Assembly: GCF_027925305.1 (NCBI RefSeq)
Contig: NZ_BSDR01000001.1
Location: 2,383,001 to 2,447,000, forward strand
Direction: 5' to 3'
Origin: Desulforhabdus amnigena
Lineage (GTDB): Bacteria > Desulfobacterota > Syntrophobacteria > Syntrophobacterales > Syntrophobacteraceae
DNA length: 64,000 bases
Shown: positions 1 through 16,491 of the stretch, piece after piece
Layout: each line of letters starts with the position of its first letter
Position numbering within the stretch: position 1 is the first letter of the stretch
Position numbers and translations under genes: made by a program
Notes under the pieces: generated by a model
Databases searched by the model: none
What the model was told of the DNA's origin: nothing
Seen by the model: the letters and a program-made list of their open reading frames with translations, nothing else

Positions 1-2
1 TG

Positions 3-533
3 GACCTCTTTGTCCGAAAAGGAAGGGGAGTGAAAGGGGGTGTGTCTCAAGCCACTCCCGAATCCCTTGAAAAAGGAATCACCGGCTTTATGGCAACACT
101 GAGTGGGGTCAACGCCAGGCGAACCTCTCCTCTGCGGCTTCGGGAAATGGACTTGTTGGAACAGGCATCTCATCGAAAGAAGAATCCGCCCTTCTGTCAT
201 GCCTGCAAGGGGGAAAGCCTGGCAATACATCCCGATGGAACGCTCTATCCCTGTTCACAGACGGCCGGCGATCCCCTTTTCGCCGCGGGAACGCTGGATC
301 ATCCCGATAGAGAGCGCCTCATGGCCTTGAAACGGTTCACATTGTTTTCCGAGGAGTGCAAAACCTGCGTCCTGGCGGATCGCTGCCCGGGCGATTGTCC
401 CAGCAGGCAGTATTACAATCGAGGGGGAACCAATTCTTTGACCTGTGTGATGTACCGCACTTTATGGAACGGCTCCAGGAAAAATGGCGATTTCAACCTT
501 CTCCTTAACTCGACGTTCTCAGATTTCATGTGA
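3..533 (+). CDS. Radical SAM/SPASM protein, C-terminal part (5' truncated by window edge)
   Basis: The reading frame is open from base 3, so the gene begins upstream; the GTG at 30 is probably internal. What is visible is a SPASM-type auxiliary cluster domain: CHAC near the start, then LAIHPDGTLYPCSQ, and a terminal CKTCVLADRCPGDC cysteine set. In radical SAM maturases such domains hold one or two auxiliary [4Fe-4S] clusters and act on peptides or proteins. The N-terminal CX3CX2C radical SAM core is outside the window. It lies 160 bases upstream of the chelatase genes and on the same strand, but a dispersed repeat separates them, so co-transcription is uncertain. Substrate unknown; a tetrapyrrole-related role would be guesswork. 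Confidence 0.7.
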   Translation, partial: DLFVRKGRGVKGGVSQATPESLEKGITGFMATLSGVNARRTSPLRLREMDLLEQASHRKKNPPFCHACKGESLAIHPDGTLYPCSQTAGDPLFAAGTLDHPDRERLMALKRFTLFSEECKTCVLADRCPGDCPSRQYYNRGGTNSLTCVMYRTLWNGSRKNGDFNLLLNSTFSDFM

Positions 534-693: not shown

Positions 694-2736
694 ATGCATA
701 AAAATGTTTATCCATTTTCCGCCATCGTGGGACAGGAAAAACTGAAGCTTTCCCTGATCCTGAATGCTATCAACCCTCAAGTCGGCGGAGTCCTCATCCG
801 GGGCGAGAAGGGTACGGCCAAGTCCACAGCAGTGCGTGCGCTGGCGGCTCTGTTGCCGGAAATCAAGGTCGTTCAGGGGTGCCCCTATTCGTGCGACCCG
901 GATCAGCAAAGCGAGCTTTGTGAAAAGTGCCGTGAAAAGCGGGCGCAACATCGGGAAGTGTGGCGCCGCACGAAAGTGATCACACTTCCCTTGAATGCCA
1001 CCGAGGACAGGGTCGCAGGGGGAATCGACTTCGATCTGGCCATAAAAAAGGGGATACGCGTCCTTCAGCCGGGGCTCCTGGCCAAAGCACACCGGGGCAT
1101 TCTCTACGTGGACGAAGTCAACCTGCTGGACGACCACATCGTAGACATCATCCTGGATGCGGCGGCTTGCGGGGAAAACCGCATCGAGCGCGAGGGGATT
1201 TCCTACCGTCATCCCGCCCGCTTCATCCTGAGTGGGACCATGAATCCCGAAGAAGGGGAATTGAGGCCGCAGCTTCTCGACCGATTTGGGCTTTGCGTCG
1301 AGGTAACGGCCGAAGCCGATCTCGAAAAACGGGCACTTCTCATGCAATACCGGGAAGAATACGACCTGGACCCCCGGGGCTTTCAAGAGCGATTCCGCGA
1401 GGAAAACGAAAAGATCGCCGCCCGGATCATCCACGCCCGGGAAATCCTGGGTGATGTGAGGCTCCCGCGGCATCTCCGGTTGTTCATTTCCGAGCTCAGT
1501 ACGCAAAACCATGCAGCCGGGCATCGGGCCGACCTGGTCATGGAACAGGCAGCCAAAGCTCACGCCGCCTACCACGATCGCTTTGAAGTCACGATCGACG
1601 ACATCAGCGAAACGGCTCCCATGGTGCTTCTACACCGAAAACGGGATGAAGCCCCGGCACCCCCGCCCCCTCCTCCGCCTGCGAAGAATGAAGAGCAGGA
1701 AAAATCCCCGGAGGATGAAAACCCTAATCTGGATCCCATGGACGAGCAGCAGAATGACTCCCCCCAGGAATCCCAGCCCCCGCCCGAAGAGGCGGATTCC
1801 CGAGCGGACGATGCCCCACCGCCTCCCCGGGACGACGGGAAACAGGATCCAATGGACCCGGAGGAAAAAGAGGGAGAGCGGGAAATGCGGGAACAGGTCT
1901 TCGAGGTGGGAGCGACCTTCCGCATCAAGCACTTTGAAGCCCCCAAGGACCGGGTCGTTCGGAGGGGGTCGGGGAGAAGATCCCGCACGCGCATTTCACA
2001 AAAACAGGGGCGATACGTCAAGAGCACCATGAAGAGAGGAACGGGGGACATCGCCCTGGACGCCACTTTGCGGGCTGCGGCGCCTTATCAGCAGAGCAGG
2101 AAGGGAAACGGGAAGCTCGCCGTCTACCTCAAAGATGAGGATATACGGGAGAAGATCCGGGAAAAGAGGATCGGGAACTTTTTGCTTTTCGTGGCGGATG
2201 CAAGCGGCTCCATGGGAGCCCGAAGCCGCATGGCGGCTTCCAAGGGAGCCATCATGTCCCTGCTCCTCGACGCCTATCAGAAGCGGGACCGCGTGGCCAT
2301 GATTTCCTTCAGAAAGCGGGAAGCGGTGCTCAACCTCCCCCCCACCTCCTCCGTGGAACTGGCGGGAAGGCTGCTCAAAGAGATGCCCGTCGGAGGAAGG
2401 ACTCCCCTCTCAGCGGGATTGGTCAAATGCCATGAGATCCTGCGAAATCAGTTTCTGCGGGATCCGAGCATGCGGCCTTTCGTTATTTTCATCACGGATG
2501 GAAAGTCCAACGTGGCGCTGGGGGAAGGGAAACCCGTAGAAGAAGCCCTGGACCTGGCCGCCAGGATGAGCCTGGATCCCCGCGTTCAGTTCATTGTCGT
2601 GGACACGGAAGAAGACGGAGTCGTCTCTTTCGGCCTGGCACGGCAGCTTGCCGCTGCAATGCATGCCCGATATTTCAAAATCGACGACCTCAAAGCGGAC
2701 CAACTCGTGAACGTTGTGAAAGGAACGGTTCAATGA
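694..2736 (+). CDS. ChlD/BchD-like chelatase subunit: AAA+ domain, acidic/Pro linker, VWA domain
   Basis: 680 aa, likely an accessory ATPase/integrin-like subunit of an ATP-dependent CobN/BchH-type metal chelatase, cytoplasmic. The N-terminal AAA+ module has Walker A GEKGTAKST (about 37-45) and a Walker B-like LYVDEVNLLDD (about 137-147). An insert of four cysteines, CPYSCDPDQQSELCEKC (about 62-78), follows Walker A. Residues about 318-405 form a Pro/Glu/Asp-rich linker, as in ChlD/BchD. The C-terminal VWA domain carries a MIDAS DASGSMG (D near 502), GGRTPLSAG and ITDGKSN. The ATG at 694 starts a well-formed N-terminus. The gene overlaps the next by four bases (ATGA), so the two are translationally coupled. 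Known ChlI-ChlD pairs drive a large H/CobN subunit, which follows here. The metal is not determined by sequence. Confidence 0.88.
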   Translation: MHKNVYPFSAIVGQEKLKLSLILNAINPQVGGVLIRGEKGTAKSTAVRALAALLPEIKVVQGCPYSCDPDQQSELCEKCREKRAQHREVWRRTKVITLPLNATEDRVAGGIDFDLAIKKGIRVLQPGLLAKAHRGILYVDEVNLLDDHIVDIILDAAACGENRIEREGISYRHPARFILSGTMNPEEGELRPQLLDRFGLCVEVTAEADLEKRALLMQYREEYDLDPRGFQERFREENEKIAARIIHAREILGDVRLPRHLRLFISELSTQNHAAGHRADLVMEQAAKAHAAYHDRFEVTIDDISETAPMVLLHRKRDEAPAPPPPPPPAKNEEQEKSPEDENPNLDPMDEQQNDSPQESQPPPEEADSRADDAPPPPRDDGKQDPMDPEEKEGEREMREQVFEVGATFRIKHFEAPKDRVVRRGSGRRSRTRISQKQGRYVKSTMKRGTGDIALDATLRAAAPYQQSRKGNGKLAVYLKDEDIREKIREKRIGNFLLFVADASGSMGARSRMAASKGAIMSLLLDAYQKRDRVAMISFRKREAVLNLPPTSSVELAGRLLKEMPVGGRTPLSAGLVKCHEILRNQFLRDPSMRPFVIFITDGKSNVALGEGKPVEEALDLAARMSLDPRVQFIVVDTEEDGVVSFGLARQLAAAMHARYFKIDDLKADQLVNVVKGTVQ

Positions 2737-3776
2737 CCCAGAGAATGACATACCCTTTTGCCGCTATTGTGGGCCAGGAAAAGATGAAGCTGGCTCTCAC
2801 CCTGAACCTCATCAACCCCACCCTCTCCGGGGTCCTGATCCGGGGCGAGAAAGGCACAGCCAAGTCCACCGCGGTGCGCGCGCTGGCGGAGATCCTTCCT
2901 GAAATCGAAGTGGTCCGGAGCTGCCCTTTTCAGCTTTCCTTGAATTCCGAACGGGACGTTTGCAGGGAATGCGCCCGGGTGGAATGCCGTGAAAGAATCC
3001 TCAAAGGGGAACCGGTCGAAACCCTGAAAAGAAAGATCCGGGTGATCGAGCTTCCCGTGGGGGCCACGGAAGATCGCGTGGTGGGGACCCTCGACCTGGA
3101 ACACGCCCTCAAGATGGGTGAAAAACGGATCGAGCCCGGCCTTCTGGCGGCGGCTCACCGAGGGATTCTCTACGTGGATGAGGTGAACCTCCTGGACGAC
3201 CACGTCGTGGACGTGCTTCTGGATTCCGCGGCCATGGGAATCAACACCATCGAACGGGAGGGAGTCTCTTTTTCTCACCCGGCAAGGTTCACTCTCGTGG
3301 GGACCATGAACCCCGAAGAGGGCGAATTGAGGCCTCAACTGCTCGACCGATTCGGCCTGTGCGTCCATATCGAGAGCCTTCAGGATCCGGAGCAGCGCGT
3401 CGCCATCATGGAACGGAGGGCAGCCTTCGACGAAGACCCAGAAAGCTTCTGCAGGCAGTGGGAAGGGGCGTCGGCTCAACTGGTTCGAGAAATCGAAAAC
3501 GCCATTCAACTCTATCCCAGGGTAACCGTCGACCGCTCCCTCTTTTTCGAAATCGCCGCATACTGCCTTGACGTGGGGGTAGACGGACACCGGGGAGACA
3601 TCATCATTTTGAAGACGGCCAAAACGATCGCGGCCTTCAACAGCAGAACGGAAGTGATACGGGAAGATATCGATACGGCCGCGGAGCTCGCTCTGCCTCA
3701 TCGCATGCGGCGTCAACCGCTGCAAGACATCGTCATGGATGTGAAGAGCGTGCGAAGGAACCGAAATCAAGGATGA
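2733..3776 (+). CDS. ChlI/BchI-like AAA+ chelatase ATPase
   Basis: 347 aa, the typical length for a ChlI/BchI-type chelatase motor. It has Walker A GEKGTAKST (about 37-45), Walker B LYVDEVNLLDDHVVDVLLDSAA, and the ChlI signature GTMNPEEGELRPQLLDRFGL. Like its upstream partner it has a cysteine-bearing insert after Walker A, CPFQLSLNSERDVCRECARV (about 64 on). Its AAA+ core is very similar to the N-terminal half of the upstream ChlD-like protein, indicating a duplication. It overlaps both neighbours (ATGA at 2733 and at 3773), giving a tightly coupled ChlD-ChlI-CobN order. Expected to form the hexameric ATPase ring that energises the CobN-like subunit. Confidence 0.88.
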   Translation: MTQRMTYPFAAIVGQEKMKLALTLNLINPTLSGVLIRGEKGTAKSTAVRALAEILPEIEVVRSCPFQLSLNSERDVCRECARVECRERILKGEPVETLKRKIRVIELPVGATEDRVVGTLDLEHALKMGEKRIEPGLLAAAHRGILYVDEVNLLDDHVVDVLLDSAAMGINTIEREGVSFSHPARFTLVGTMNPEEGELRPQLLDRFGLCVHIESLQDPEQRVAIMERRAAFDEDPESFCRQWEGASAQLVREIENAIQLYPRVTVDRSLFFEIAAYCLDVGVDGHRGDIIILKTAKTIAAFNSRTEVIREDIDTAAELALPHRMRRQPLQDIVMDVKSVRRNRNQG

Positions 3777-3787
3777 GGGGTACGGCC

Positions 3788-6700
3788 ATGAACGCCTATA
3801 CACTCTGCTACTACAGCGCCACCTCCATGGAGATCGCCTCCCTCAGCCAGGGGGTGTCGCAATACCAGGAAGAGGGCGGACGTATCAGAGTCCTCGCGAG
3901 AACGAAGAGTCAGCTTTTCGATGATTCCCGAATCCATGCCTTCGTCCAGGCGGCCCTGGAATCCGACGTGATTTTGATCACGCTGCACGGGGGGGAGGAG
4001 TCCTGTCCCGCATTTTCCCCACTCATTCAGGCATTGGAAGAAAAAAGATCGCTGGGAGAAAAAACACCCCATTTCCACATTCAACCCTCCGCCGGGGATG
4101 AGGATGCCTCGGCCTTGGCCCAGAAGCATTCTGACGGCTTCGGCCGGGAGGTCTGGAATACCATCAGCGGCTATCTCCTCCAGGGAGGAGCGCTCAACTG
4201 CAAAAACCTTTTAGTCTACCTGCACAACCTGGTCTTCCACAAGATCGAGCCCCTGGAACTCCCCCAGCCCCTCCCTCATGAAGGGATCTATCACCCCGAC
4301 CTTCCGGGAGTTCCCGATTTCGAGAAGTACCTCAAAGAACGGGTCGATCCCGGCAAGGTCACGGTGGGGCTCTGGTTTTACCAGACCTACTGGGTCAACA
4401 ACAACCTGGCCGCCATCGATGCCATCATCCGGGAAATCGAAAGGCAGGGAGCCAACGTGATCCCGGTTTTTCACTTCAGGTACAAGGATGCCCTGAGGGG
4501 GAACCGGGGGGCGGACTACATCGTGGAACACTTTTTCATGGAAAACGGACGCCCTCGAATCAATGTTCTCATCAATCCCCTCATGTTTTCCCTGACCCTC
4601 GTCGCTCCGGAATGTAAGGAACTCCTTTCGCGACTGGATGTTCCCTTCATCCAGGCCGTCTGCACCATGAATCCCCATGCGGTCTGGAAGGAAAGCCCGC
4701 AGGGGCTGACCGCCATGGACGTGACCTATTGCGCCGCACAGCCCGAATTCGACGGAGCGCTCATCACCGTTCCCGTGGCAACAAGGGAGGAAGATGCCGT
4801 AGATCCCCTGACGGGCGCCCTTCTCACCCGGACAATGCCCATCCCTGAGCGGGTGCAAAAAATGGTTTCCCTCTCTCTCAACTGGGCGCGGCTTCGAAGG
4901 AAAGAGAACGCCGAAAAACGGATCGCTATCGTCTTCCACCATTACCCTCCCCGCAACGACCGCATCGGCTGTGCCGCGGGGCTGGACAGCTTCGAGAGCG
5001 TCAAGCGGCTGCTCGACCACATGCGGGATGAGGGATACCGCATCGACCGCACGTTTGAAAGCGGCGATGCCCTGGCCCGGGAAATGCTGGAGCGCATGAC
5101 CTGCGACAGGCGGTGGCTGACTCCCGAGCGCATGGCGGAACGCGCTGAAGCCCATGCAGGGGCAGAGCACTTCGTTCCGTGGCACGAAGCGCTTCCCGCA
5201 CCCATTCGAGAAAAAATGACGGCGGATTGGGGAAAGGTTCCAGGGGACCTTTTTGTGCACGACTACCGGATGCATTTTCCCGGAATGATCGACGGAAACG
5301 TCTTCCTCACCATTCAGCCCCCGAGGGGCTATTTCGAAAACATCGACAAGATCTACCACGACATGTACCTTTCCCCGCCGCATCACTATCTGGCTCATTA
5401 CCGCTGGATCAGGGACGTTTTCAAGGCCGATGCGGTCATGCACGTGGGCAAGCACGGGTCGCTCGAATGGCTGCCGGGAAAAGGGGTAGGATTGAGCGAG
5501 GAATGCTATCCGGACCTTTCCATTATGGACCTTCCCAATGTCTATCCCTATATCATCAACGATCCCAGTGAGGGAACTCAGGCCAAACGCCGTTCGTACT
5601 GCTGCATCATCGACCATCTCACTCCCGCCTTCACCAATGCGGACCTCTATGAAGACCTGGCAAAGGTGGAAAACCTCGTCAAGGACTACATCGAAGCCAG
5701 GCAACAAAATCCCGACAAGCTGAACGTGCTGAAACCCATGCTCTGGGAAGCCGTCGTACAGGCCGATCTGGACAAGGATCTGCAAATCGGCGAGGCGGAA
5801 GCCTTCCAGGATTTCGATCGTTTCCTGGAACGCCTCCACGACTGCCTGACGGATCTGGCCGACACCATGATCAACGACGGGCTCCACATCCTGGGTACGA
5901 CCCCCGAAGGTGAAAAACTGGTGGAATTTCTGGTGCAACTCACCCGGCTTCCCAACGGGGAGGTTCCGTCCCTTCGAGAATCCGTGCTGAGAGCCATGGG
6001 CTACGACCACGACGACCTCTTGGAAAACAAGGGGAAAACTCTGGAACAATACGGCAACAGGACCGGCGGGGAGATCCTCCGCCTGGGCCATGAAGCGGCC
6101 CTCGGGATGGTGAGGGAGCTCGAATCCGCTGGATTCCAGCGGGAAAGCATCCGCTCCGCCGTCGAGTCCTACCTGGGGGTCTATCACGCCGATGTTGCTT
6201 CGGTTCTGACATACATCACCGAGACCCTGGTACCCCGAATCCGACAGGTGACCGACGAACTGACCGCGAGCCTCCGGGCTTTCGACGGACGGTTTGTGCA
6301 GCCTGGGCCTTCGGGAGCTCCCAGCCGGGGACAGGCGGATATCCTGCCCACCGGGCGCAACTTTTATTCCGTGGACCCGGACAAGATCCCGAGCCCCGCA
6401 GCCTGGGAAGTGGGCAAGAGACTGGGAGACGGGCTCATCGAACGGTATCTTTCAGAAACAGGTAAGTATCCCGAGAGTATCGGCATCCTTCTCTGGGGGG
6501 GACCCACGATGAGGTCGAAGGGAGACGACCTGGCCGAAATCCTCTACCTCATGGGGGTGCGTCCCCGGTGGCGGAAAGGGAGCGGAAAAGTGGCCGGCCT
6601 GGAAGTCATTCCCCTGTCGGAACTGGGCCGTCCTCGCCTGGATGTGGTCCCCAGGATTTCCGGCTTTTTCCGGGACGCCTTCCCCAACCTGGTGGAACTC

Positions 6701-7561
6701 ATCGACAATGCGGTGAAAATCGTCGCCGTACTCAAAGAGCCTCTCGAAAGCAACATCCTGCGGCGTCACGTGCTGGAAGATCAGCAGACCTACCGCAAGG
6801 ATGGGATGTCCGAGGAAGATGCCTTCAGGGAAGCGACTTTCCGCATCTTCGGCTGTCCCCCCGGTACCTACGGTGCCGGAGTCGCCGAATTGGTGGAATC
6901 CAAGCACTGGAAAACCCAGGAGGATCTCGGGAACAACTACATCCGCTATACCGCTCACGCCTATGGGAAGGGAAGCTACGGGAAACAAAAACCCAAAACG
7001 TTCCGAAAAATCCTCTCACGCATGGATGTGACGATCAAGAACGAGGATTCCCGGGAATACGACATGCTCTCCTGCACTGACTATTACAACTATTACGGGG
7101 GGCTCATCGTTGCGGTCAAGACCGTCCGGGGGGAGCTCCCGCACGCCTACATGGGCGACAGCTCGGACCCCCGGCGGATCAAGATCCGGTCCACCTTCGA
7201 AGAGGCCAGGCACGTTCTGCGCTCCCGCCTTCTCAATCCCAAGTGGCTCGAAGGGCTGAAACGCCACGGTTACAAGGGGGCCGGAGACATTTCCAAGATG
7301 ATGGACGTCGTATTGGGCTGGGATGCCACGGGGGAAGTGATGGAAGACTGGATGTACGAGAGGATGGCCCGAAAATACGCCCTTGATCCCAAAATGCAGG
7401 AGTGGATGAAAGAGGTCAACCCCTACGCCCTCCAGAACATTCTGGACAAGCTCCTGGAAGCCGTCAACCGAGGGATGTGGAACGCTGACGAGGAGATGGA
7501 AAAAGAGCTTCGCAACGCCTACCTGGACATTGAAGGGGAAATCGAAGAAGTGACGGAATGA
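3788..7561 (+). CDS. cobN: CobN-like chelatase large subunit (canonical motifs)
   Basis: 1257 aa from the ATG at 3788, which has GAGGGG upstream; an in-frame ATG at 3773, overlapping the previous stop, is an alternative start. CobN/BchH family: the subunit binds the tetrapyrrole and inserts the metal using ChlI/ChlD ATP hydrolysis. Visible family motifs are VGLWFYQTYWVNNNLAAIDA, IQPPRG...YHDMYLSPPHHY, HVGKHGSLEWLPGKGVGLS (H552 and H556 both present) and INDPSEGTQAKRRS; near the C-terminus a CTDYYNYYGG block is kept. Length and motifs fit a working cobaltochelatase-type large subunit. Nickel or magnesium insertion cannot be excluded from sequence, since BchH, CobN and other paralogues are homologous. 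Confidence 0.88.
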   Translation: MNAYTLCYYSATSMEIASLSQGVSQYQEEGGRIRVLARTKSQLFDDSRIHAFVQAALESDVILITLHGGEESCPAFSPLIQALEEKRSLGEKTPHFHIQPSAGDEDASALAQKHSDGFGREVWNTISGYLLQGGALNCKNLLVYLHNLVFHKIEPLELPQPLPHEGIYHPDLPGVPDFEKYLKERVDPGKVTVGLWFYQTYWVNNNLAAIDAIIREIERQGANVIPVFHFRYKDALRGNRGADYIVEHFFMENGRPRINVLINPLMFSLTLVAPECKELLSRLDVPFIQAVCTMNPHAVWKESPQGLTAMDVTYCAAQPEFDGALITVPVATREEDAVDPLTGALLTRTMPIPERVQKMVSLSLNWARLRRKENAEKRIAIVFHHYPPRNDRIGCAAGLDSFESVKRLLDHMRDEGYRIDRTFESGDALAREMLERMTCDRRWLTPERMAERAEAHAGAEHFVPWHEALPAPIREKMTADWGKVPGDLFVHDYRMHFPGMIDGNVFLTIQPPRGYFENIDKIYHDMYLSPPHHYLAHYRWIRDVFKADAVMHVGKHGSLEWLPGKGVGLSEECYPDLSIMDLPNVYPYIINDPSEGTQAKRRSYCCIIDHLTPAFTNADLYEDLAKVENLVKDYIEARQQNPDKLNVLKPMLWEAVVQADLDKDLQIGEAEAFQDFDRFLERLHDCLTDLADTMINDGLHILGTTPEGEKLVEFLVQLTRLPNGEVPSLRESVLRAMGYDHDDLLENKGKTLEQYGNRTGGEILRLGHEAALGMVRELESAGFQRESIRSAVESYLGVYHADVASVLTYITETLVPRIRQVTDELTASLRAFDGRFVQPGPSGAPSRGQADILPTGRNFYSVDPDKIPSPAAWEVGKRLGDGLIERYLSETGKYPESIGILLWGGPTMRSKGDDLAEILYLMGVRPRWRKGSGKVAGLEVIPLSELGRPRLDVVPRISGFFRDAFPNLVELIDNAVKIVAVLKEPLESNILRRHVLEDQQTYRKDGMSEEDAFREATFRIFGCPPGTYGAGVAELVESKHWKTQEDLGNNYIRYTAHAYGKGSYGKQKPKTFRKILSRMDVTIKNEDSREYDMLSCTDYYNYYGGLIVAVKTVRGELPHAYMGDSSDPRRIKIRSTFEEARHVLRSRLLNPKWLEGLKRHGYKGAGDISKMMDVVLGWDATGEVMEDWMYERMARKYALDPKMQEWMKEVNPYALQNILDKLLEAVNRGMWNADEEMEKELRNAYLDIEGEIEEVTE

Positions 7562-7591: not shown

Positions 7592-10500
7592 ATGAATATC
7601 GTTTTTGTCCATACGCACATGTTTCACCACCAAACGTGGAAAAGGGTCGCCGACCGTCTCGAGAGTGAAGGCATTCGTCTCAGCATTTTTCCGCAGCAAA
7701 ACGCGCCTCTTGTCCTGGATATGCTGGCTGCGGGGGATACGGATCTCTTCCTGGGGGAACTGTCTCAGGGGCTGCCGGCTTTCAAAGAGCTGACAGCGGC
7801 AGCGGAACAGGCCAGGCATCGCATCGGCTTCGGAATGGAAATGCCCAAGGGGTTCTCCACTCTAAGCGAGGACGTTCTCTCCCTTTTCAAAAGCTATATC
7901 GCGAAGGTCTCCGAGGAAAACTATTATAACGGCATCAAATACCTCGCTTCTCAGGCCGGCATGGATACGGCCTACGAAGCCGTCCAGCCGGTGAAAACAC
8001 ACGGCATTTACCACTGCGATGCCCCGGAAACCTTCGGAGACACGGCTTCCTATCTCAACTGGCATGAAAAACACCGGGGCGTCTCCAGCGACGGGAACAT
8101 CGTCGGAATGCTCTGTTATCATTCGCAGATCGTCGAAGGGAACACCGTCGAAATCGATGAAGTGATCCACTCCCTGGAAGATCATGGGCTCGTTCCCCTC
8201 TGCGTTTTTTGCGAAGGCATTCCGGACAGCTCCCTGCTGCCCGACAGACGCTACCCCTGGCTTTCATACTTCAAGACAAACGGTTCCCACCCCGAAGCCG
8301 TCCTCAACCTGCTGGGCGGCCGCTTCCTGGCTCGGCAGCAGGATGTGCGACATCTGCAGGGACTGGATGTGCCGGTTTACCAGCTCATTCGCAATTATAC
8401 TCAGACCGCCGGACAGTGGCTCGAAGATCCCGTGGGGCTCTCCGGCCACAGCCTGGTCTATGCCGTGGCCCAGCCGGAAGTGGCCGGAATCATCGAACCC
8501 ACGCTGGTGGCGGCGCTCGCGATCGAGATATCCCCCGCCGATCCGGCTTCTTCCAGGCCATTCACTCCCATCGAGGAACGCATCGATACCCTCTGCAGGC
8601 GGCTGAAGCGTCTCATCCGGTTGCGGCGGCTTCCCAATTTTCAAAAACGCATCACTTTCGTTCTCCACAACAACCCCTGCAAGGGAGTGGAAGCCACGGT
8701 GGGAATGGCGACCGGACTGGACGCCTTCCAAAGCCTGGCGTCCGTCCTGCAGGCCATGAAGAGTGCGGGTTACGACACGGGGGATGCGCCGGCAAACGGC
8801 AAGGAAATCCTGGAAATGATCCTGCAGCGCAAAGCTGTCTCCGAATTCCGCTGGACGACGGTTTCGGAAATCGTTCAAAAGGGGGGTGTGCTTTACCGCA
8901 TGGGACGGGAAGAATACGAAACGTACCTGGATTCCCTGCCTTCGGAAGCCAGGGAGCGTGTCCTCTCGGAGTGGGGGGGCTTTCCGGGGCAGGGAATGGT
9001 TTACCGGGAAGACGGACGCGACGTGCTGCTCATTACGGGCCTTCGGTTCGGAAAGATCAAGATCATGCCCCAGCCCAAAAGAGGCTGTTACGGTTCCAAG
9101 TGCAACGGCGAAGTCTGCCGCATCCTCCATGACCCCGAACTTCCGCCGCCTCACCACTGGCTGGCCACCTACAAGTACATTCGGGACACTTCCGATGCGG
9201 TCGTTCACTTCGGCACCGGAGGGTCCCTGGAATACCTTCCCGGGAAACGCGCCGCCCTTTCGGAGCGATGCTTTCCCGCCCTCTCTGTGGACGACCTCCC
9301 CCATATCTATCTCTACGTGATGAACGTTCCCGGTGAGGGGCTGATGGCCAAACGGCGCGCAGGCGCCGTGATGGTGGATCACCTCACCCCCGTTTACCGG
9401 CCTGCTGAAATGGATGAAGAAACACGGCGACTGGAGGCCCTCCTGGAACAGTACTTCAGGGCCTCCGATATGGGGGAGGCGGCGCGCCTGGATCTCATCG
9501 GAAAAGAGATGCTGCCCCTCATGAAGCGACTAAAATTCGTGGAAAAGGACGACGGCGGCGAGGATCTGCAAGAAAAGGCACGGCTCGCGTCGCGCCAGAT
9601 CGAACTCACCAAGAGGGCCCTGGCCCCCGACGGCATGCATATTCTGGGGACTTTTCCCGATGCAACGGGCAGAGCCCGGATGCTTACGACCATTTTGCTC
9701 CATCCCTCCCCGGAACTGCCCGACCTCCAGGGAATCACACAAAAGCTGGAGGGGGGAACAGGGAACGTTTTTGAGGACGGAGTCGAAATTACGCAGTCGA
9801 TCCTTGAAAACCTCAAGCCCGAAAGGCTGCCCGATGAACTGCTCACCCGGGAGAGCTTCAACGGCCTGGCGGATTGGTGCCGAAACATGGATTGGCAGAT
9901 CAGGGAGAGCCGGCGTGAAATTCCTCAGCTTCTCAAGGCCCTGAACGGAGGCTACATAGAACCGGGCTTGAGCGGCTCCATCTACCAGGGCAAAACGGAT
10001 GCCCTCCCCACAGGACGGAATTTCTTCGCAACGGACGTCACCATGCTTCCCACCCGGGCCGCTTGGGAAATCGGCTGCAAACTGGCCGACAGGCTTCTCT
10101 CCAAGTTCCTGGACGAGGAAGGCCGCTTTCCGGAAAACATCGGGATCAACCTCTGGAGCTCCGATGCCTTCAAATCCGACGGGGAAGTCTGTTCCCAGAT
10201 ACTCTATCTCCTGGGGGTGCGGCCCGTCTGGAATGCCTACGGGCGGGTCGGCAAGGTCGAGGCCATCCCCCTGGAAGAGCTGGAGATCCGGGTCGCGGGA
10301 GAAAAAATAGTCCGTCGCCCGCGCATCGACGTGACCATCCAGGCGAGCGGTATTCTGAGGGACATGGTCATGAACTTTTGCGAACTGCTCGACGATGCCG
10401 TCCTCCTGGTGAGCCGCCTCGATGAACCCGGGGAATGGAACTTCATACGAAAGCACACCTTGGAACACATGGATGCCTTGCGAAGCGAAATGCAGGACCG

Positions 10501-11371
10501 GCTCTCCGAATCGCAGATTAGAAGGCTGGCCAGTTTCCGTGTTTTTTCCTCGGCCCCCGGTACCTATGGGCTGGGAGTGGGACTCGCCCTGGACGCCTCC
10601 GCCTGGGAAGACGACAAGGACCTGGCGGAAGTCTATGTCAACTGGGGCGGATACGCTTACGGTTCCAACAAAAACGCCGAGGGACTCAAGGTGTACGGTA
10701 TGGAGGTGCAGGACCTGCTGGCCCGGCAGCTGTCCAATATAGACGTATCTTTCATGAAACAGAGCACCGCGGAATACGACATCCTAGACTGCGGATGCTA
10801 CGCTGTGTTCCAGGGGGGGATGGCGGCCGCTTCCAGGGCTCTGGGCGGTAAGGGACCGAAGCTCTACTGGGGAGACGCCAACCAGGCCGATACTCCGGAC
10901 ATACGTGATTTCAAGGAGGAAATCGGGAGGTCCGCCCGCGCCAGGCTTCTCAACCGCAAGTGGATCGAGAACATGAAAAGGCACGGCTATCAAGGGGCCC
11001 AGGACGTATCGAGCCGCGTGAACAACCTCTTCAAATGGAGCGCCACCTCCCGGGAGGTGGAAAAATGGGTTTTCGACTCGGTGGTGGAGTCCTACATCCT
11101 TGATCGGGAAAATCTCGAGTGGCTGCGGGAAGCCAATCCGCATGCCCTGGAGGAACTTACCCGCAGGCTGCTCGAAGCCCACTCCCGCGGACTCTGGGAG
11201 GCCGACCCGGAGTTGCTGGCCGAGGTGCAGTCCGCCGCCCTCACCATCGAAGGGGATATGGAGGAGATGATGGGCGACGTGGAAGGGGAATTCCAGGGGG
11301 GCAAGGTGGAGATGTTGACCTCCCGCAACGTGGAGAAGTGGGAGCCCAAATGGACTTTCAAGAAGCCGTAG
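7592..11371 (+). CDS. Second CobN-like large subunit, diverged at conserved motif
   Basis: 1259 aa, RBS GGGAG before ATG 7592, 30 bases after the first cobN. It aligns over its whole length with the upstream paralogue but is strongly diverged. The HxGxHG motif reads HFGTGGSLEYLPGK: H539 is kept, while the second histidine is G543. NDPSEG is changed to NVPGEG, and the C-terminal DYYNYYGG block to GCYAVFQGG. A cysteine trio absent from the first copy, CYGSKCNGEVC (C499, C504, C509), sits just before HDPELPPPHHW; similar cysteines occur, from memory, in some other anaerobe CobN proteins. It is intact and full length, so selection is probably maintaining it. It may use a different metal or tetrapyrrole, or be a non-catalytic partner of the first CobN. 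Confidence 0.82.
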   Translation: MNIVFVHTHMFHHQTWKRVADRLESEGIRLSIFPQQNAPLVLDMLAAGDTDLFLGELSQGLPAFKELTAAAEQARHRIGFGMEMPKGFSTLSEDVLSLFKSYIAKVSEENYYNGIKYLASQAGMDTAYEAVQPVKTHGIYHCDAPETFGDTASYLNWHEKHRGVSSDGNIVGMLCYHSQIVEGNTVEIDEVIHSLEDHGLVPLCVFCEGIPDSSLLPDRRYPWLSYFKTNGSHPEAVLNLLGGRFLARQQDVRHLQGLDVPVYQLIRNYTQTAGQWLEDPVGLSGHSLVYAVAQPEVAGIIEPTLVAALAIEISPADPASSRPFTPIEERIDTLCRRLKRLIRLRRLPNFQKRITFVLHNNPCKGVEATVGMATGLDAFQSLASVLQAMKSAGYDTGDAPANGKEILEMILQRKAVSEFRWTTVSEIVQKGGVLYRMGREEYETYLDSLPSEARERVLSEWGGFPGQGMVYREDGRDVLLITGLRFGKIKIMPQPKRGCYGSKCNGEVCRILHDPELPPPHHWLATYKYIRDTSDAVVHFGTGGSLEYLPGKRAALSERCFPALSVDDLPHIYLYVMNVPGEGLMAKRRAGAVMVDHLTPVYRPAEMDEETRRLEALLEQYFRASDMGEAARLDLIGKEMLPLMKRLKFVEKDDGGEDLQEKARLASRQIELTKRALAPDGMHILGTFPDATGRARMLTTILLHPSPELPDLQGITQKLEGGTGNVFEDGVEITQSILENLKPERLPDELLTRESFNGLADWCRNMDWQIRESRREIPQLLKALNGGYIEPGLSGSIYQGKTDALPTGRNFFATDVTMLPTRAAWEIGCKLADRLLSKFLDEEGRFPENIGINLWSSDAFKSDGEVCSQILYLLGVRPVWNAYGRVGKVEAIPLEELEIRVAGEKIVRRPRIDVTIQASGILRDMVMNFCELLDDAVLLVSRLDEPGEWNFIRKHTLEHMDALRSEMQDRLSESQIRRLASFRVFSSAPGTYGLGVGLALDASAWEDDKDLAEVYVNWGGYAYGSNKNAEGLKVYGMEVQDLLARQLSNIDVSFMKQSTAEYDILDCGCYAVFQGGMAAASRALGGKGPKLYWGDANQADTPDIRDFKEEIGRSARARLLNRKWIENMKRHGYQGAQDVSSRVNNLFKWSATSREVEKWVFDSVVESYILDRENLEWLREANPHALEELTRRLLEAHSRGLWEADPELLAEVQSAALTIEGDMEEMMGDVEGEFQGGKVEMLTSRNVEKWEPKWTFKKP

Positions 11372-11534: not shown

Positions 11535-13112
11535 ATGGACACATCGTTGAAGGTCCTGAAGGTCGCTTTTGTGCACCTAGACGTCCGGTACAAAGATCCT
11601 GAGGCCAACCGGAAAAACCTGCTCCGGTTGAACCGGGAAGCGGCCATACAGGGAGCCAACCTCATTTTGAATACGGAAATGCCCCTGGCGGGCTATTCAT
11701 TCTCTTCACGGGAGGACATTTCCGGTTACGTTGAATCGGAAAACGGTCCCACTCTGACCGAAATCAAGCGGCTGGCAAAAGAATACGGGACCTACATCGG
11801 AATGGGGCTTGCCGAGCACGATGAAGCGACGGGAATCTACTACAACAGCGCATTCGTGATCGATCCGGATGGCAGGCGGGTTTGCAGGTACCGCAAGATC
11901 AATGCGGAAATGCGCTGGGCATGCCCCGGAGACCCCAAGCAGAGCGGGACCTTCGATACCCCCTGGGGGCGGATAGGAGTCCTGATCTGCTCGGATTCCT
12001 ACTATGGAATGATGCCGCGTTCCATGGCCATGCGAGGGGTTGACCTCCTGTGGGTGCCGGCCAACTGGCCTCCGAGCGGCCTCGACCCGCTGGAGCTCTG
12101 GAAGGGAAGAGCTATCGAAAATGGTTTTTTCATCGCCGCCTGCGGGCGTACGGGAAAAGACCGCATCATGGACTGCACCTCCGCGGTCTCCTGCGCGTTC
12201 GACCCGCAGGGCCGGGAGCTCTTCGCCGCATCCTCGGAAGAATCCCGGGTCTTCATGGTGGAAATTCCATTGAACGAAGTGGGAAGGCTTTCCAATGGAT
12301 CACACCCCCAAACCCTGCAAGGCCGGAATCCCTCCCTCTATCGATCCATCTACCTGGACTTTCGCCTCATCGACGATCTTACGGCCCATTATGACCTGCC
12401 GCAGCCGGGACCATTGCATGTTCACTGCCTTGTTCCAGGCGGGGAAGACTGGGATCTCGAAACCTTCGAGAGGCAAATTACCGTCACAAAAAAGGAAGGC
12501 TCCAACCTCTTCGTGCTGCCCCCTCTTTCTTCTGCTCTCATGGATGCAAAGAGTTTGAAGTCCCTGGCCAGACAGCACGATGTCGCACTGGCCACATCCC
12601 TTTACAGTGGCGGACCGGCAGACAGCGTCTCTTCTTCGAGCGATGAGACACCGGGAAGGGAAAACCCTTCCGCCGTTCAGGTTTTGGTGACACCCGACAC
12701 AACCTGTGAATGGCGCATCGAAGATACGGAGCATCCAAACGGCAAGTTTCCTTTTCCCACGGTTCATTACGGCCCGGCAAAACTGGGCATGGCCCCGTAT
12801 GAACTGCTCTTGCATCCCGAACTGGCCGTCGCTTTTTCCAAGGAGGGATATGACCTGGTGGTCCTCTCGGAAAATCGATTGGACAGGACCCAACGTCTCC
12901 TTTGCGGAATCAGGACAATCGAAGGAATTGCCGTAGCCGCCTGCTCCCCGAACGGCGCGATCATCTCCATGGTCCCGAAAGGACACGAACGCTGGGAAGA
13001 GCAAAGCATCGAAGGTCCGGGAACCTGCTCCTACGCACTCGACACAGCGCGGATCAGGAAAAAGCGCTTTCAGGATCGAGTGGACTTCGAGCTTCTCCTG
13101 AGGACTTCCTGA
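11535..13112 (+). CDS. Tandem nitrilase-fold (carbon-nitrogen hydrolase) protein
   Basis: 525 aa, RBS GGGAG before ATG 11535. The N-terminal half is a nitrilase-superfamily amidase with the expected E-K-C triad: E48 (NTEMPLAGYSF), K121 (YRKINAE, with E125) and C152 (GVLICSDSYY). The C-terminal half (about 295-525) looks like a second nitrilase fold whose catalytic positions are not kept: PPLSS replaces the Glu region and GPAKLGMAPYE replaces the Cys region. Nitrilase-fold enzymes hydrolyse or form amides and nitriles, and the substrate cannot be read from sequence. Placed between CobN-like chelatases and a CbiZ fusion, it could act on corrinoid side-chain amides, but that is inference from position. 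No signal peptide, so cytoplasmic. Confidence 0.82.
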   Translation: MDTSLKVLKVAFVHLDVRYKDPEANRKNLLRLNREAAIQGANLILNTEMPLAGYSFSSREDISGYVESENGPTLTEIKRLAKEYGTYIGMGLAEHDEATGIYYNSAFVIDPDGRRVCRYRKINAEMRWACPGDPKQSGTFDTPWGRIGVLICSDSYYGMMPRSMAMRGVDLLWVPANWPPSGLDPLELWKGRAIENGFFIAACGRTGKDRIMDCTSAVSCAFDPQGRELFAASSEESRVFMVEIPLNEVGRLSNGSHPQTLQGRNPSLYRSIYLDFRLIDDLTAHYDLPQPGPLHVHCLVPGGEDWDLETFERQITVTKKEGSNLFVLPPLSSALMDAKSLKSLARQHDVALATSLYSGGPADSVSSSSDETPGRENPSAVQVLVTPDTTCEWRIEDTEHPNGKFPFPTVHYGPAKLGMAPYELLLHPELAVAFSKEGYDLVVLSENRLDRTQRLLCGIRTIEGIAVAACSPNGAIISMVPKGHERWEEQSIEGPGTCSYALDTARIRKKRFQDRVDFELLLRTS

Positions 13113-13149: not shown

Positions 13150-13260
13150 GAGCCTATCCGAAAACCTACCTAGGCAGCGGACACCCCCCCTTTAATTCCC
13201 CCCTCAAGGGGGGACCGAGGGGGGTGTCGCAAAGTCCACGGGGGGGGGCGGATAGGTTAT
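13150..13260. repeat. Dispersed palindromic repeat, family A copy 2
   Basis: Starts GAGCCTATCCGAAAACC, ends GCGGATAGGTT (inverted), with CCCCCCTCAAGGGGGG inside. The 331-base gap between the nitrilase-like gene and the CbiZ fusion (13113-13443) consists largely of this element and the REP-like hairpins at 13301-13371. I saw no cobalamin riboswitch there. Confidence 0.7.
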
Positions 13261-13300: not shown

Positions 13301-13371
13301 CGTCACCCCGGCGAAAGCCGGGGTCCAGAAAAGCTTAATTGACCTGGATTCCGACTTCCGTCGGAATGAGG
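13301..13371. repeat. REP-like double hairpin
   Basis: Contains CCCCGGC-GAAA-GCCGGGG and then ATTCCGAC-TTCC-GTCGGAAT, two perfect stem-loops spaced about 25 bases apart. The sequence resembles widespread proteobacterial REP-type elements. It is not part of the downstream gene even though that frame stays open through it. Confidence 0.6.
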
Positions 13372-13443: not shown

Positions 13444-15510
13444 ATGAAAGAATACAAGCGTTTTATGAGACGAAACTGGCGGTTGCGGTATTGTTTTCTT
13501 ATGGCTCTCTTTTGTCTGACCTTCCTGGGATCCGCTTTGGGATCTGCGGCTTCACTCTTTGCCTATCCTGTCAGTCTGACGGATTCCGGGGGAAATACCA
13601 TCATCTTGGAGCGGAAACCCCAAAACGTGATTTCCCTTGTCCCCGCGATCACCGAGATCATTTTTGCTCTGGGTGAGGGTGAATCCATCAAGGGAATCAC
13701 TTATCACGACACCTGTCCACCCGGTGAAAATCAAAAGAGCATCGTGGGAGGATTCTTCGCTCCGTCACCGGATCGAATGGAAGCCCTTGGACCCGATCTG
13801 ATCTTTGTCTCTTCCCTGCACAGGGAAATCCAAAACCGCTTTTCTCATGAAAACTGTCGAATGATTCAGCTGGAGTCTCATTCCATTGATCAGCTCTATG
13901 AAAACATTCGCTCTTTGGGATTGATCTTCGAGAAGACCCGTGAGGCGGAAGCAATCATTGAGGGGATTCAAAACCAGCTGCGGCTCGTTGCTCAAAAAAT
14001 CGACAAGATCCCGGGCAGTCAAAGAAAAAGAGTTATTCGGCTCATGGGGCGGGACCGCGTGATGACACCGGGGGACGACTCCTTCCAGAACGCATTCATC
14101 CGTGCCGCGGGAGGCATTCCTCCTGAACTCGGCAAAAAGGGAAACGTGGTGGATGTTTCCCTCGAGGAATGGACGCGTTTCAATCCCCAGGTGATCTATG
14201 GCTGCAATGGAGACCGGGAGGTTGCCGGGAAGTTTTTTTCCCAGCCGGGTTGGAAGGATGTGGAAGCCGTCCGTACGGGCAGGATTTTCTATCTGCCCTG
14301 TGAACTGACGTGCCGCGCTTCGGTGCGTTCAGGCGATTTTGTCCAGGGACTCGCGTCCCTGGTTTACGAAGAGGAATTTTCCTCCGTCCGGAACAGGGTC
14401 CTCGAGGAAAAGCGTGTTCAAAGCAAGCCCATAGAGCTCCCTTTGGATTACGTCCGGTCGGCGAGAGTGGATGAAAGCAACATCTTCGATTTTCCGAACA
14501 AGACCTTGACGATTGAATTCAGGAGACCCATGGGGGTCACCTCCACCCTTGAAGGAGAGCGCGAAAAGATCATCGCCGTCGGCAACCACTATTCTTCTCC
14601 CCCGTGCTGGAGCATCGAACACAGGCTGGGTCTCGAAAAGAGCAGGGAACGCATCTACAAGGCGATCGGGAGGTCGAAAAAGGACAGCTGCTTTCTTTTT
14701 ACCGGTGCAGACATGGGGAATTTGAGTGTTCAAAAGGCGCAATTCAAAGAGATGACCGTGTATGCCCTGGTGACGGCGGGTGTGGAGACCAACGCCGTAC
14801 GCATGTCGGTAGACGAAGGGCTTTTCTACGAACCGGGCACCATCAACGTGATTCTCATGACCAATATGAAACTCTCCCCCAAGGCGAGGGCGAGAGCGGT
14901 CATCAGCGCGACGGAAGGCAAAACGGCGGCAATGCAGGACCTGGACATTCGAAGTTCCGTCAGCCCCCTGAAGAGTCAGGCGACAGGGACCGGCACGGAT
15001 GAGGTCCTTGTGGTCGAAGGAGAAGGCAAGCCCATCGACAATACAGGGGGACACTGCAAGATGGGGGAATTGATTGCAAAAACCGTTTACGACGGAGTGA
15101 AGGAAGCGGTCTACCGGCAAAATGGAATCCTGCTCCAGCGCAGTATCTTTCAGAAGCTCCGGGAAAGACACATCAACCCCAATGGACTTCTGAGGGAATG
15201 CGGTTGCCTTGGTCAAGGAAACGATGAACGCGCCAATATCGCCCGGTTCGAGGCCATTTTGCTGCAGCCTCGATACGCCGCCTTCCTGGAATCGGCCTTT
15301 GCCCTCAGCGATGCCTACGAAAGGGGACTGATTACGGACCTCGGCGCCTTCGAAGCGTATTGTCGCACCGTTTCCGAGGAAATTGCAGGGCATAGGACAG
15401 AAAATTGGACCGACAGAATAACCTCCGAGGAGATCCCTATTGTTCTCAGAATGTCTCTCAACGCCTTGCTGAATGGAATGGTGCTGAAAAACGAGCAACC
15501 GCAACAATGA
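13444..15510 (+). CDS. BtuF-like corrinoid-binding protein fused to CbiZ amidohydrolase, exported
   Basis: 688 aa from ATG 13444; the frame is open further upstream but only through a REP element. Residues 1-40 are a basic stretch followed by a hydrophobic signal (RYCFLMALFCLTFLGSALGS), so the protein should be exported. About 45-300 is a BtuF/FhuD-type binding-protein domain (KPQNVISLVPAITEIIFALG). About 346-558 is a CbiZ domain, with GVETNAVRMSVDEG, GTINVILMTN and DNTGGHCKMGELIAKTVYDG. CbiZ removes the nucleotide loop side chain of adenosylcobinamide-type corrinoids so they can be rebuilt. A 120-residue C-terminal region (HINPNGLLRECGCLGQG) is of unknown function. The export signal implies that corrinoid remodelling happens outside the cytoplasm. 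No BtuC/BtuD genes adjoin. Confidence 0.85.
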   Translation: MKEYKRFMRRNWRLRYCFLMALFCLTFLGSALGSAASLFAYPVSLTDSGGNTIILERKPQNVISLVPAITEIIFALGEGESIKGITYHDTCPPGENQKSIVGGFFAPSPDRMEALGPDLIFVSSLHREIQNRFSHENCRMIQLESHSIDQLYENIRSLGLIFEKTREAEAIIEGIQNQLRLVAQKIDKIPGSQRKRVIRLMGRDRVMTPGDDSFQNAFIRAAGGIPPELGKKGNVVDVSLEEWTRFNPQVIYGCNGDREVAGKFFSQPGWKDVEAVRTGRIFYLPCELTCRASVRSGDFVQGLASLVYEEEFSSVRNRVLEEKRVQSKPIELPLDYVRSARVDESNIFDFPNKTLTIEFRRPMGVTSTLEGEREKIIAVGNHYSSPPCWSIEHRLGLEKSRERIYKAIGRSKKDSCFLFTGADMGNLSVQKAQFKEMTVYALVTAGVETNAVRMSVDEGLFYEPGTINVILMTNMKLSPKARARAVISATEGKTAAMQDLDIRSSVSPLKSQATGTGTDEVLVVEGEGKPIDNTGGHCKMGELIAKTVYDGVKEAVYRQNGILLQRSIFQKLRERHINPNGLLRECGCLGQGNDERANIARFEAILLQPRYAAFLESAFALSDAYERGLITDLGAFEAYCRTVSEEIAGHRTENWTDRITSEEIPIVLRMSLNALLNGMVLKNEQPQQ

Positions 15511-15600: not shown

Positions 15601-15743
15601 GAGGCTGTCTGAAAATTCCTCTGCTTGAAAGTCGAACCTGCTTCGATTCCCCCCTTGAGGGGGGCCAAAGGGGGGGTGTTTTTCTGGTTCGCGAAACCTT
15701 GGCCCCCTGCCCCCCCCTCAAGGGGGGAATTTTCAGACATCCT
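15601..15743. repeat. Dispersed palindromic repeat, family A copy 3
   Basis: Begins GAGGCTGTCTGAAAATTCC and ends GGAATTTTCAGACATCC, near-perfect terminal inverted repeats, with C-run/G-run palindromes inside. A partial further copy (CTCTCTGAAAATTC) precedes it near 15537. The 981-base gap 15511-16491 holds this element, AT-richer unassigned sequence (about 15900-16200) and the tandem repeat at 16216; I see no convincing gene in it. Confidence 0.7.
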
Positions 15744-16247
15744 ATGAAGGTTAAAATCCCTCCTTGAAGGGGGACAGGGGGGTGTAACGCTCTGAAAACA
15801 TCCCATTTCAATCCCCCCTTCCACTCAAGGGGCCTCCCAAAACAGGTTGGGAGGTGTCCCCCCAGTTGGGTCCAGTCAATTATCTCTTTAGTCACTGAAA
15901 AAATCCGTGATCTCCTGATGGACAATCCCTCTGAATAGCCATATTTTTGTTGTATATTATTCTTTCTTGACCCGAAATTTTCCTGCCGACAGTTTTATTG
16001 ATTGGGATGAAATGCCAACAGAACCCAGTAACTATTCAAAATCCAAGTTTGTTGGGTTACCGCCTCCCTGGATAACTACTCGAATTGAGTAACAACCGAT
16101 GGATTTTGTCCTCCAGCCCCACAGCGCAACGGCAAGCGGGTCTGCAACCTGGGCGGTTTGTAAGATTAATCGAATTGAGATGGGTCTATGTCTATGGTTA
16201 AAGGCTGACCTTAGGGATTGTAAAAGAACTATTTCCCGGTTTCTCCT

Positions 16248-16281
16248 GGATTCCGGTTTTCGCCGGAATCCGGTCTTTTTT
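16248..16281 (+). terminator. Terminator-like hairpin, unit 1
   Basis: GGATTCCGG-TTTTCG-CCGGAATCC is a perfect 9-bp stem with a 6-base loop, followed by GGTCTTTTTTG. It has the layout of a Rho-independent terminator reading + strand, though it may equally be a repeat-borne hairpin. Confidence 0.5.
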
Positions 16282-16374
16282 GAAGAAATACGGAACTTGT
16301 TTTTCTAAGGGCCCTTAGTCCATTTCAAGGGCTGACCCCGGTGATTGTAAAAGAACTATTTCCCGGTTTCTCCT

Positions 16375-16408
16375 GGATTCCGGTTTTCGCCGGAATCCGG
16401 TCTTTTTT
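16375..16408 (+). terminator. Terminator-like hairpin, unit 2
   Basis: Identical copy of the 16248 hairpin plus T-run in the second tandem unit. The two in series would insulate the downstream gene from upstream transcription. Confidence 0.5.
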
Positions 16409-16491
16409 GAAGAAATACGGAACTTGTTTTTCTAAGGGCCCTTAGTCCATTTCAAGGGCTGACCCCGGTGACTGACCCCGGTGACTTGGTC

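Follow-up and report, generated by a model that had tools for sequence, protein, structure and literature searches.

A signal-peptide-bearing fusion of BtuF-type and CbiZ domains in Desulforhabdus amnigena and other Desulfobacterota: corrinoid trimming may begin before import

CbiZ is an adenosylcobinamide/pseudocobalamin amidohydrolase. The amide that it cuts adjoins the aminopropanol linker, and a link between this enzyme and uptake has been proposed before (PMC7733943); the published activity to which that paper refers is on adenosylated pseudocobalamin. Characterised CbiZ proteins have been treated as intracellular salvage enzymes, and CbiZ-based remodelling is usually placed after import. 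CbiZ is joined to another part of corrinoid salvage in CbiS (CbiZ with alpha-ribazole phosphatase) and in a 489-residue protein on a Cytobacillus plasmid (locus L146, 1418-2887, annotated as adenosylcobinamide amidohydrolase) that looks like a BtuD-CbiZ fusion; neither has a BtuF domain, and the latter has no signal peptide. BtuF, the binding protein of BtuCDF, has a class III fold and a signal peptide and stands in the context of btuCD and TonB-receptor genes. Dehalobacter restrictus belongs to the Firmicutes and has no outer membrane. Its corrinoid-starvation operon-2 is corrinoid-responsive and holds CbiZ, CobN, Mg-chelatase subunits and a BtuCD-like transporter together (PMC4285132), as the loci described below do, and a word search of the paper turned up no mention of fusion. 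The Hmu heme system with HmuS comprises a TonB receptor, ExbB-like energiser genes and an anchored CobN homologue, HmuU/V being described as acting together with the receptor (PMC12583661). CbiZ, BtuF, their operon company and the CbiZ-uptake link are already known (PMC7733943, PMC4285132). Searches of the open-access literature gave no account of a CbiZ that is exported or joined to BtuF, most subscription journals lying outside that search, so that novelty is unproven.

In the window, that is, the whole stretch of 64,000 nucleotides of the Desulforhabdus amnigena genome analysed here, an ATG at 13444 on the plus strand starts a frame of 688 residues that ends at 15510, and whose product consists, in this order, of a Sec-type signal peptide, a Peripla_BP_2 domain of the BtuF type, a complete CbiZ domain and a tail of about 120 residues that is predicted to be helical. 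A preliminary description made from the letters had read signal peptide, BtuF-type domain and CbiZ in one chain, and this was borne out by the open reading frame, Pfam, hydropathy and homologues. The AlphaFold2 model (mean pLDDT 87.8, pTM 0.84; 27 sequences in the input alignment) opens with a long helix at the N-terminus and further comprises the binding-protein and CbiZ domains and the helical tail. The majority-residue conservation among fusions is 0.24 in the signal region, 0.59 in the BtuF part, 0.69 in CbiZ, where it is highest, and 0.47 in the tail. As the phylum has many homologues that span nearly the full length and reach into the signal region, the architecture is no artefact of chance, frame or assembly. 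The protein shares with described CbiZ (PF01955) the full-length domain, the invariant residues of the family and corrinoid transport genes near by, but differs in being exported, as far as the N-terminus predicts, in following a binding-protein domain and in the helical tail behind. With BtuF it has in common the class III fold, the signal peptide and the gene context, whereas the hydrolase in the same chain sets it apart.

The predicted signal peptide occupies about residues 1-40 (13444..13563, plus strand), where a positive n-region precedes a hydrophobic core. The N-terminus, MKEYKRFMRRNWRLRY-CFLMALFCLTFL-GSALGSAASLFA, carries a net charge of +6 ahead of a core with a GRAVY of 2.63 over 12 residues, and has no lipobox. 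The mature protein shows no further membrane span (best 19-residue mean hydropathy 1.37), and with a positive N-terminus inside and no later span, all domains of the fusion are expected on the outer face. Export was scored by a hydropathy rule rather than by a trained signal-peptide predictor: an N-terminus passed when it had a 12-residue core with a mean hydropathy of at least 2 and K or R before the core. The collected loci gave 93 fusion frames, 75 of them scorable by a fixed anchor, and 74 of these 75 have a signal-peptide-like N-terminus, the sole failure starting at a contig edge; for comparison, the hydropathy threshold was reached by 37/39 separate BtuF proteins and by 0/16 cytosolic CbiZ. 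The signal region of the fusions thus diverges in sequence with its hydrophobic character preserved. One could suppose that the leader is spurious or non-functional and the protein cytosolic, as the preliminary description had allowed should the true start lie beyond residue 40, and the rule-based nature of the export call speaks for that caution. However, the early in-frame ATG codons (residues 1, 8 and 21) all lie before or within the hydrophobic segment, and the charged, hydrophobic N-termini of the homologues, set beside the two controls, led us to reject a cytosolic protein with a spurious leader, to which we give almost no credence. Therefore, the export of CbiZ together with the BtuF-type domain, proposed beforehand, can be regarded as a well-supported prediction, backed by N-termini, topology and homologues.

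The BtuF-type domain covers residues 62-285 (13627..14298; Pfam E 1.3e-23). Foldseek places it with the class III binding proteins, and the matches include BtuF at E from 5.4e-14 to 2.2e-12. With 33.6 bits against a cut-off of 234 it stays below the BtuF equivalog PRK03379, and for this reason the domain is named BtuF-type and not filed as BtuF. An alignment of 27 fusions with 39 standalone BtuF proteins brought out Cys254, Cys286 and Cys290 (14203..14313), all three present in 26 of the 27 fusions and none in the remaining one; in the standalone proteins C254 and C286 occur in 0 and C290 in 17. A cysteine-rich PCxLTCR loop marks the binding domain of the fusions, and none of the 39 standalone BtuF compared showed it. 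The three cysteines could possibly form a disulphide plus a free thiol, or provide a cobalt ligand. For the glutamates that dock on BtuCD, no clear difference between fusions and separate BtuF was readable in the alignment.

The CbiZ domain comprises residues 358-552 (14515..15099) and matches PF01955 over profile positions 1-191 of 191 (E 1.1e-48; 166.2 bits, cut-off 27). T420, T444, G446, N450, G465-T466, N468, E491, TGTGTD and H537 are common to the fusion and the cytosolic CbiZ compared (those of Dehalococcoides and of the group of about 390 residues described below), and alpha-proteobacterial CbiZ also has most of these residues, some being swapped. A sequence search returned no solved CbiZ structure. 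In the structure comparison, the CbiZ portion of the model aligned with NylC (a 6-aminohexanoate-oligomer hydrolase), BapA, ThnT, DmpA and ornithine acetyltransferase at VIA-align Z of 11.6-14.5 over 185-200 residues at 10-16% identity, the next group standing at Z of about 8, and so the modelled domain matches the NylC/DmpA/OAT amidohydrolase fold. Proteins of this fold are acyl-transfer or amide-bond enzymes, and many of them cleave themselves, thereby freeing an N-terminal Thr or Ser. The residue that we predict to be the catalytic nucleophile is Thr466 in the GTIN motif (14839..14841): it is retained in every CbiZ compared, whether exported, cytosolic, BtuD-fused or alpha-proteobacterial, and in the predicted models it opens a strand behind a low-confidence loop. 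GTIN sits at a position comparable to that of the autoproteolytic site of this fold. When CbiZ was compared without gaps to the NTT autocleavage motif of Peptidase_S58, the GTIN offset came out on top, and 31/1000 column shuffles did as well; the profile comparison of CbiZ with Peptidase_S58 was not significant, aligning a C-terminal helix alone. Since it is drawn from fold and position, the role of Thr466 stays a prediction.

Certain proteins that bind corrinoids in the periplasm are devoid of enzyme activity, and by analogy the CbiZ domain might be catalytically silent, with the protein just scavenging, storing or delivering periplasmic corrinoids. The best-conserved part of the chain is, however, precisely CbiZ, and the invariant residues from T420 to H537, including T466, coincide with those of the cytosolic enzymes, which makes a silent domain very improbable.

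In its own genome, the fusion belongs to a plus-strand run that begins right behind a cobalamin riboswitch (C1:2375925-2376097), one of 11 in this genome, and that encodes, in order, a BtuF-like binding protein, BtuC, BtuD, CobA, a TonB receptor, a radical SAM/SPASM protein, ChlD, ChlI, two CobN proteins, a nitrilase and the fusion; the names BtuC and BtuD come from the sequences and from BLAST searches seeded with them rather than from Pfam. A side observation in locus L032 is a pair of cobalamin riboswitches 1.4 kb apart (10553-10737 and 11925-12097), just before the run of the window genome. Within the window, and all on the plus strand, the run shows the 3' end of the radical SAM/SPASM gene (1..533; 352 residues, start upstream of the window), a ChlD/CobT-like AAA+ chelatase subunit (694..2736; putative cobaltochelatase TIGR02442), a ChlI-like AAA+ chelatase subunit of 347 residues (2733..3776; orthologue beside ChlD in L140), and two CobN-type chelatases (3773..7561, TIGR02257 above cut-off, and 7592..11371) that have neither signal peptide nor membrane anchor. 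The nitrilase-superfamily (CN_hydrolase) protein follows at 11535..13112 (525 residues, Pfam E 4e-34); proteins of this kind recur in loci of corrinoid chelatases or fusions (L034, L053, L057, L072, L138), and the C-terminal half, judged by eye, may repeat the first half in degenerate form. The nitrilase and fusion genes are separated by a gap of 331 bp that contains repeats, and co-transcription of the fusion with the riboswitch-led genes is therefore not certain. The genome also encodes CbiB, CobS, two CobT and CbiD, which would allow cobyric acid to be rebuilt into a cobamide, and it probably makes corrinoids itself.

The neighbouring btuCD and TonB genes that had been suggested as a check are present at fusion loci in relatives too, together with B12 riboswitches. 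One layout runs TonB receptor, fusion, BtuF, BtuC, BtuD, ExbB, ExbD, TonB, and a second one TonB receptor, DUF2162, ExbB-like, DUF2149, fusion, CobN. Counting genes on the same strand within 10 kb in the 39 loci that have at least 4 kb on both sides, we found a TonB receptor in 33/39, a separate BtuF in 21/39 and CobN in 16/39, while 36/39 have one or more of the three kinds receptor, BtuC/D and CobN. A same-strand cobalamin riboswitch lies upstream of the run of the fusion in 16/20 loci (Rfam; positions read by hand).

Taken together, our reading is that the fusion is a periplasmic corrinoid-processing binding protein that captures its substrate and cleaves the amide before import, and we put the probability of this at roughly two in three. 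To hypothesize, a TonB-dependent receptor would admit cobinamide or foreign cobamides to the periplasm, where the BtuF-type domain would bind the corrinoid and the tethered CbiZ domain would hydrolyse the amide of the f side chain, giving cobyric acid and the aminopropanol (nucleotide) part. The trimmed corrinoid would then pass to BtuCD, probably via a separately encoded binding protein, to be adenosylated inside by CobA and rebuilt by CbiB, CobS and CobT into a cobamide with the cell's own lower ligand. Cleavage before import would follow from the predicted topology and the conserved residues. The hand-over could also be more direct, the fusion itself docking on BtuCD with CbiZ at the mouth of the transporter, and with cleavage and import as one coupled step. 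The BtuF-type domain in the chain, the loci that have BtuD or BtuCD and no adjoining separate BtuF (e.g., L050, L086) and the earlier proposal of coupling between CbiZ and uptake (PMC7733943) would fit such docking, but a separate BtuF is encoded immediately downstream of 15/79 fusions and near by in 21 of the 39 flanked loci counted above, the PCxLTCR loop distinguishes the binding domain of the fusion from those BtuF, and a binding protein apart from the fusion is also encoded in the run of the window genome; we consider direct docking unlikely.

Several points are in tension with periplasmic trimming by the fusion. To rebuild the nucleotide loop is a cost to the cell, and the genome is probably able to supply corrinoids of its own. 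The main tension concerns the upper ligand: because CobA works inside, adenosylated corrinoids are perhaps scarce in the periplasm, and as the activity cited in PMC7733943 was on an adenosylated substrate, the exported form should tolerate other upper ligands, if our reading is right. Should trimming be periplasmic, BtuCD must import cobyric acid and CbiZ must accept non-adenosylated corrinoids, the choice of lower ligand could be set before the inner membrane, and CbiZ genes would have to be checked for export before cobamide use in anaerobic communities is predicted. The fusion suggests that many bacteria of the sulfate-reducing type trim B12 ahead of import.

The second layout brings in a further protein, since its CobN begins with a hydrophobic signal and ends in a membrane anchor. 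Compared with the PDB, the CobN of L089, the one sequence on which the relationship to HmuS rests, finds the heme dechelatase HmuS (E 2.4e-155) ahead of CobN (5.9e-131). Among 20 exported CobN, a regular expression for the neck His of HmuS matched one. The fusion and CobN genes overlap by 4 bp in 7/15 pairs, which suggests translational coupling. Exported, anchored CobN of the HmuS type stands beside DUF2162-ExbB-DUF2149 genes in L042, L045, L046, L089, L107 and others, a trio that we take to resemble hmuTUV. With such a pairing, the module might handle a tetrapyrrole that is not a corrinoid, or strip a metal. Against this stand the cobalamin riboswitches that precede several of these modules too, pointing to corrinoids and not heme, and the target of CbiZ, a corrinoid amide that heme does not have; moreover, the HGR motif of the heme-site neck of HmuS is replaced by HAS in L089, the sole sequence aligned, and the CobN proteins of the window are not exported. 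We rate this alternative as distinctly unlikely, below docking on the transporter. The relatives' module therefore resembles the Hmu system (PMC12583661) in receptor, energiser genes and anchored CobN homologue, and differs from it by the added BtuF-CbiZ and cobalamin riboswitch. The exported CobN is possibly a periplasmic corrinoid chelatase or dechelatase. A broader and decidedly tentative proposal, which we would rather doubt, is that in bacteria of the Desulfobacterota type corrinoid remodelling begins outside the cytoplasm with a dedicated, B12-regulated module in the periplasm, where a TonB receptor would feed a loop-stripping exported BtuF-CbiZ, and that in a recurring variant the translationally coupled, exported and anchored HmuS-like CobN would also handle the stripped corrinoid, making a periplasmic line of tetrapyrrole processing.

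A search for the same architecture in related genomes, also suggested beforehand, was productive: among 297 genomes of the phylum, the protein search gave 43 fusion genes in 41 genomes, 40 matching over most of the fusion and 3 shortened. The CbiZ family search in the same number of phylum genomes gave 63 matches in 59 genomes, and so about two thirds of the CbiZ genes in the sample are the predicted exported fusion, which is the commonest CbiZ form there and no one-off. In the named genome collection, almost all of the 80 best loci come from Desulfobacterota (e.g., Desulfosarcina, Desulfogranum, Desulforhopalus), and single MAGs bear the labels Nitrospirae and Mariprofundaceae. The fusion is the sole CbiZ of the window genome, while the sampled congener (G296) had no CbiZ match, and presence is therefore patchy. 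Standalone CbiZ of the phylum split into two clear groups. One (L128-L131) consists of exported single-domain proteins of about 275-310 residues, unfused to BtuF, with the CbiZ domain at the end and TonB receptors adjoining; in L130 a separate BtuF-like gene lies directly downstream, which is the same pair unfused. The other (L133-L142 and L034) has about 380-400 residues, no signal peptide, and CobN, ChlD/I, nitrilase, radical SAM, CobA or TonB-receptor genes as neighbours. One genome (G276) carries both the fusion and a cytosolic CbiZ. In the maximum-likelihood tree, a branch sets off each of three forms, namely the fusion (support 99/98), the single-domain form with export signal (100/97) and the cytosolic form of 390 residues (97/93). 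The fusion groups with the signal-less L132 and Dehalococcoides CbiZ (92/85), so that export may have had one origin or two.

The C-terminal domain of about 120 residues noted in the preliminary description is present as a segment predicted to be helical in both models (residues 561-688; 15124..15507), for which neither Pfam, at its cut-off, nor NCBIfam gave a match. The tail is absent from exported single-domain CbiZ and from Dehalococcoides CbiZ, the cytosolic CbiZ of about 390 residues also bear a C-terminal extension of similar length, and nothing observed ties the tail to export. Aligned with that extension by HHalign, the tail is collinear at a level that is not significant (E 0.0036 global, 0.025 local; probability 2-4%). 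A CobZ phosphatase as in CbiS was considered and rejected, the tail having no match in NCBIfam and the CbiS model NF038002 scoring 61.9 bits against 250. The structure comparison of the fusion model extended over the CbiZ part only, and an assembly or substrate-cover domain is our guess for the tail.

As to the repeats around the gene, a C/G-rich palindromic repeat occupies 13180..13260 in the nitrilase-fusion interval, and similar copies lie past the fusion at 15641-15784, so the fusion gene may be situated between repeat elements. They consist of CCCCCTTGAGGGGGG and relatives, with 9 pattern matches in the window versus 0.5 expected, a count that includes both strands of a near-palindrome, so that the sites are fewer. 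Further on, at 16200-16453, a unit of 127 bp is present in two tandem copies that are 96% identical, and a palindrome, CCTGGATTCCG..CGGAAT, is common to these tandem units and to 13343-13367.
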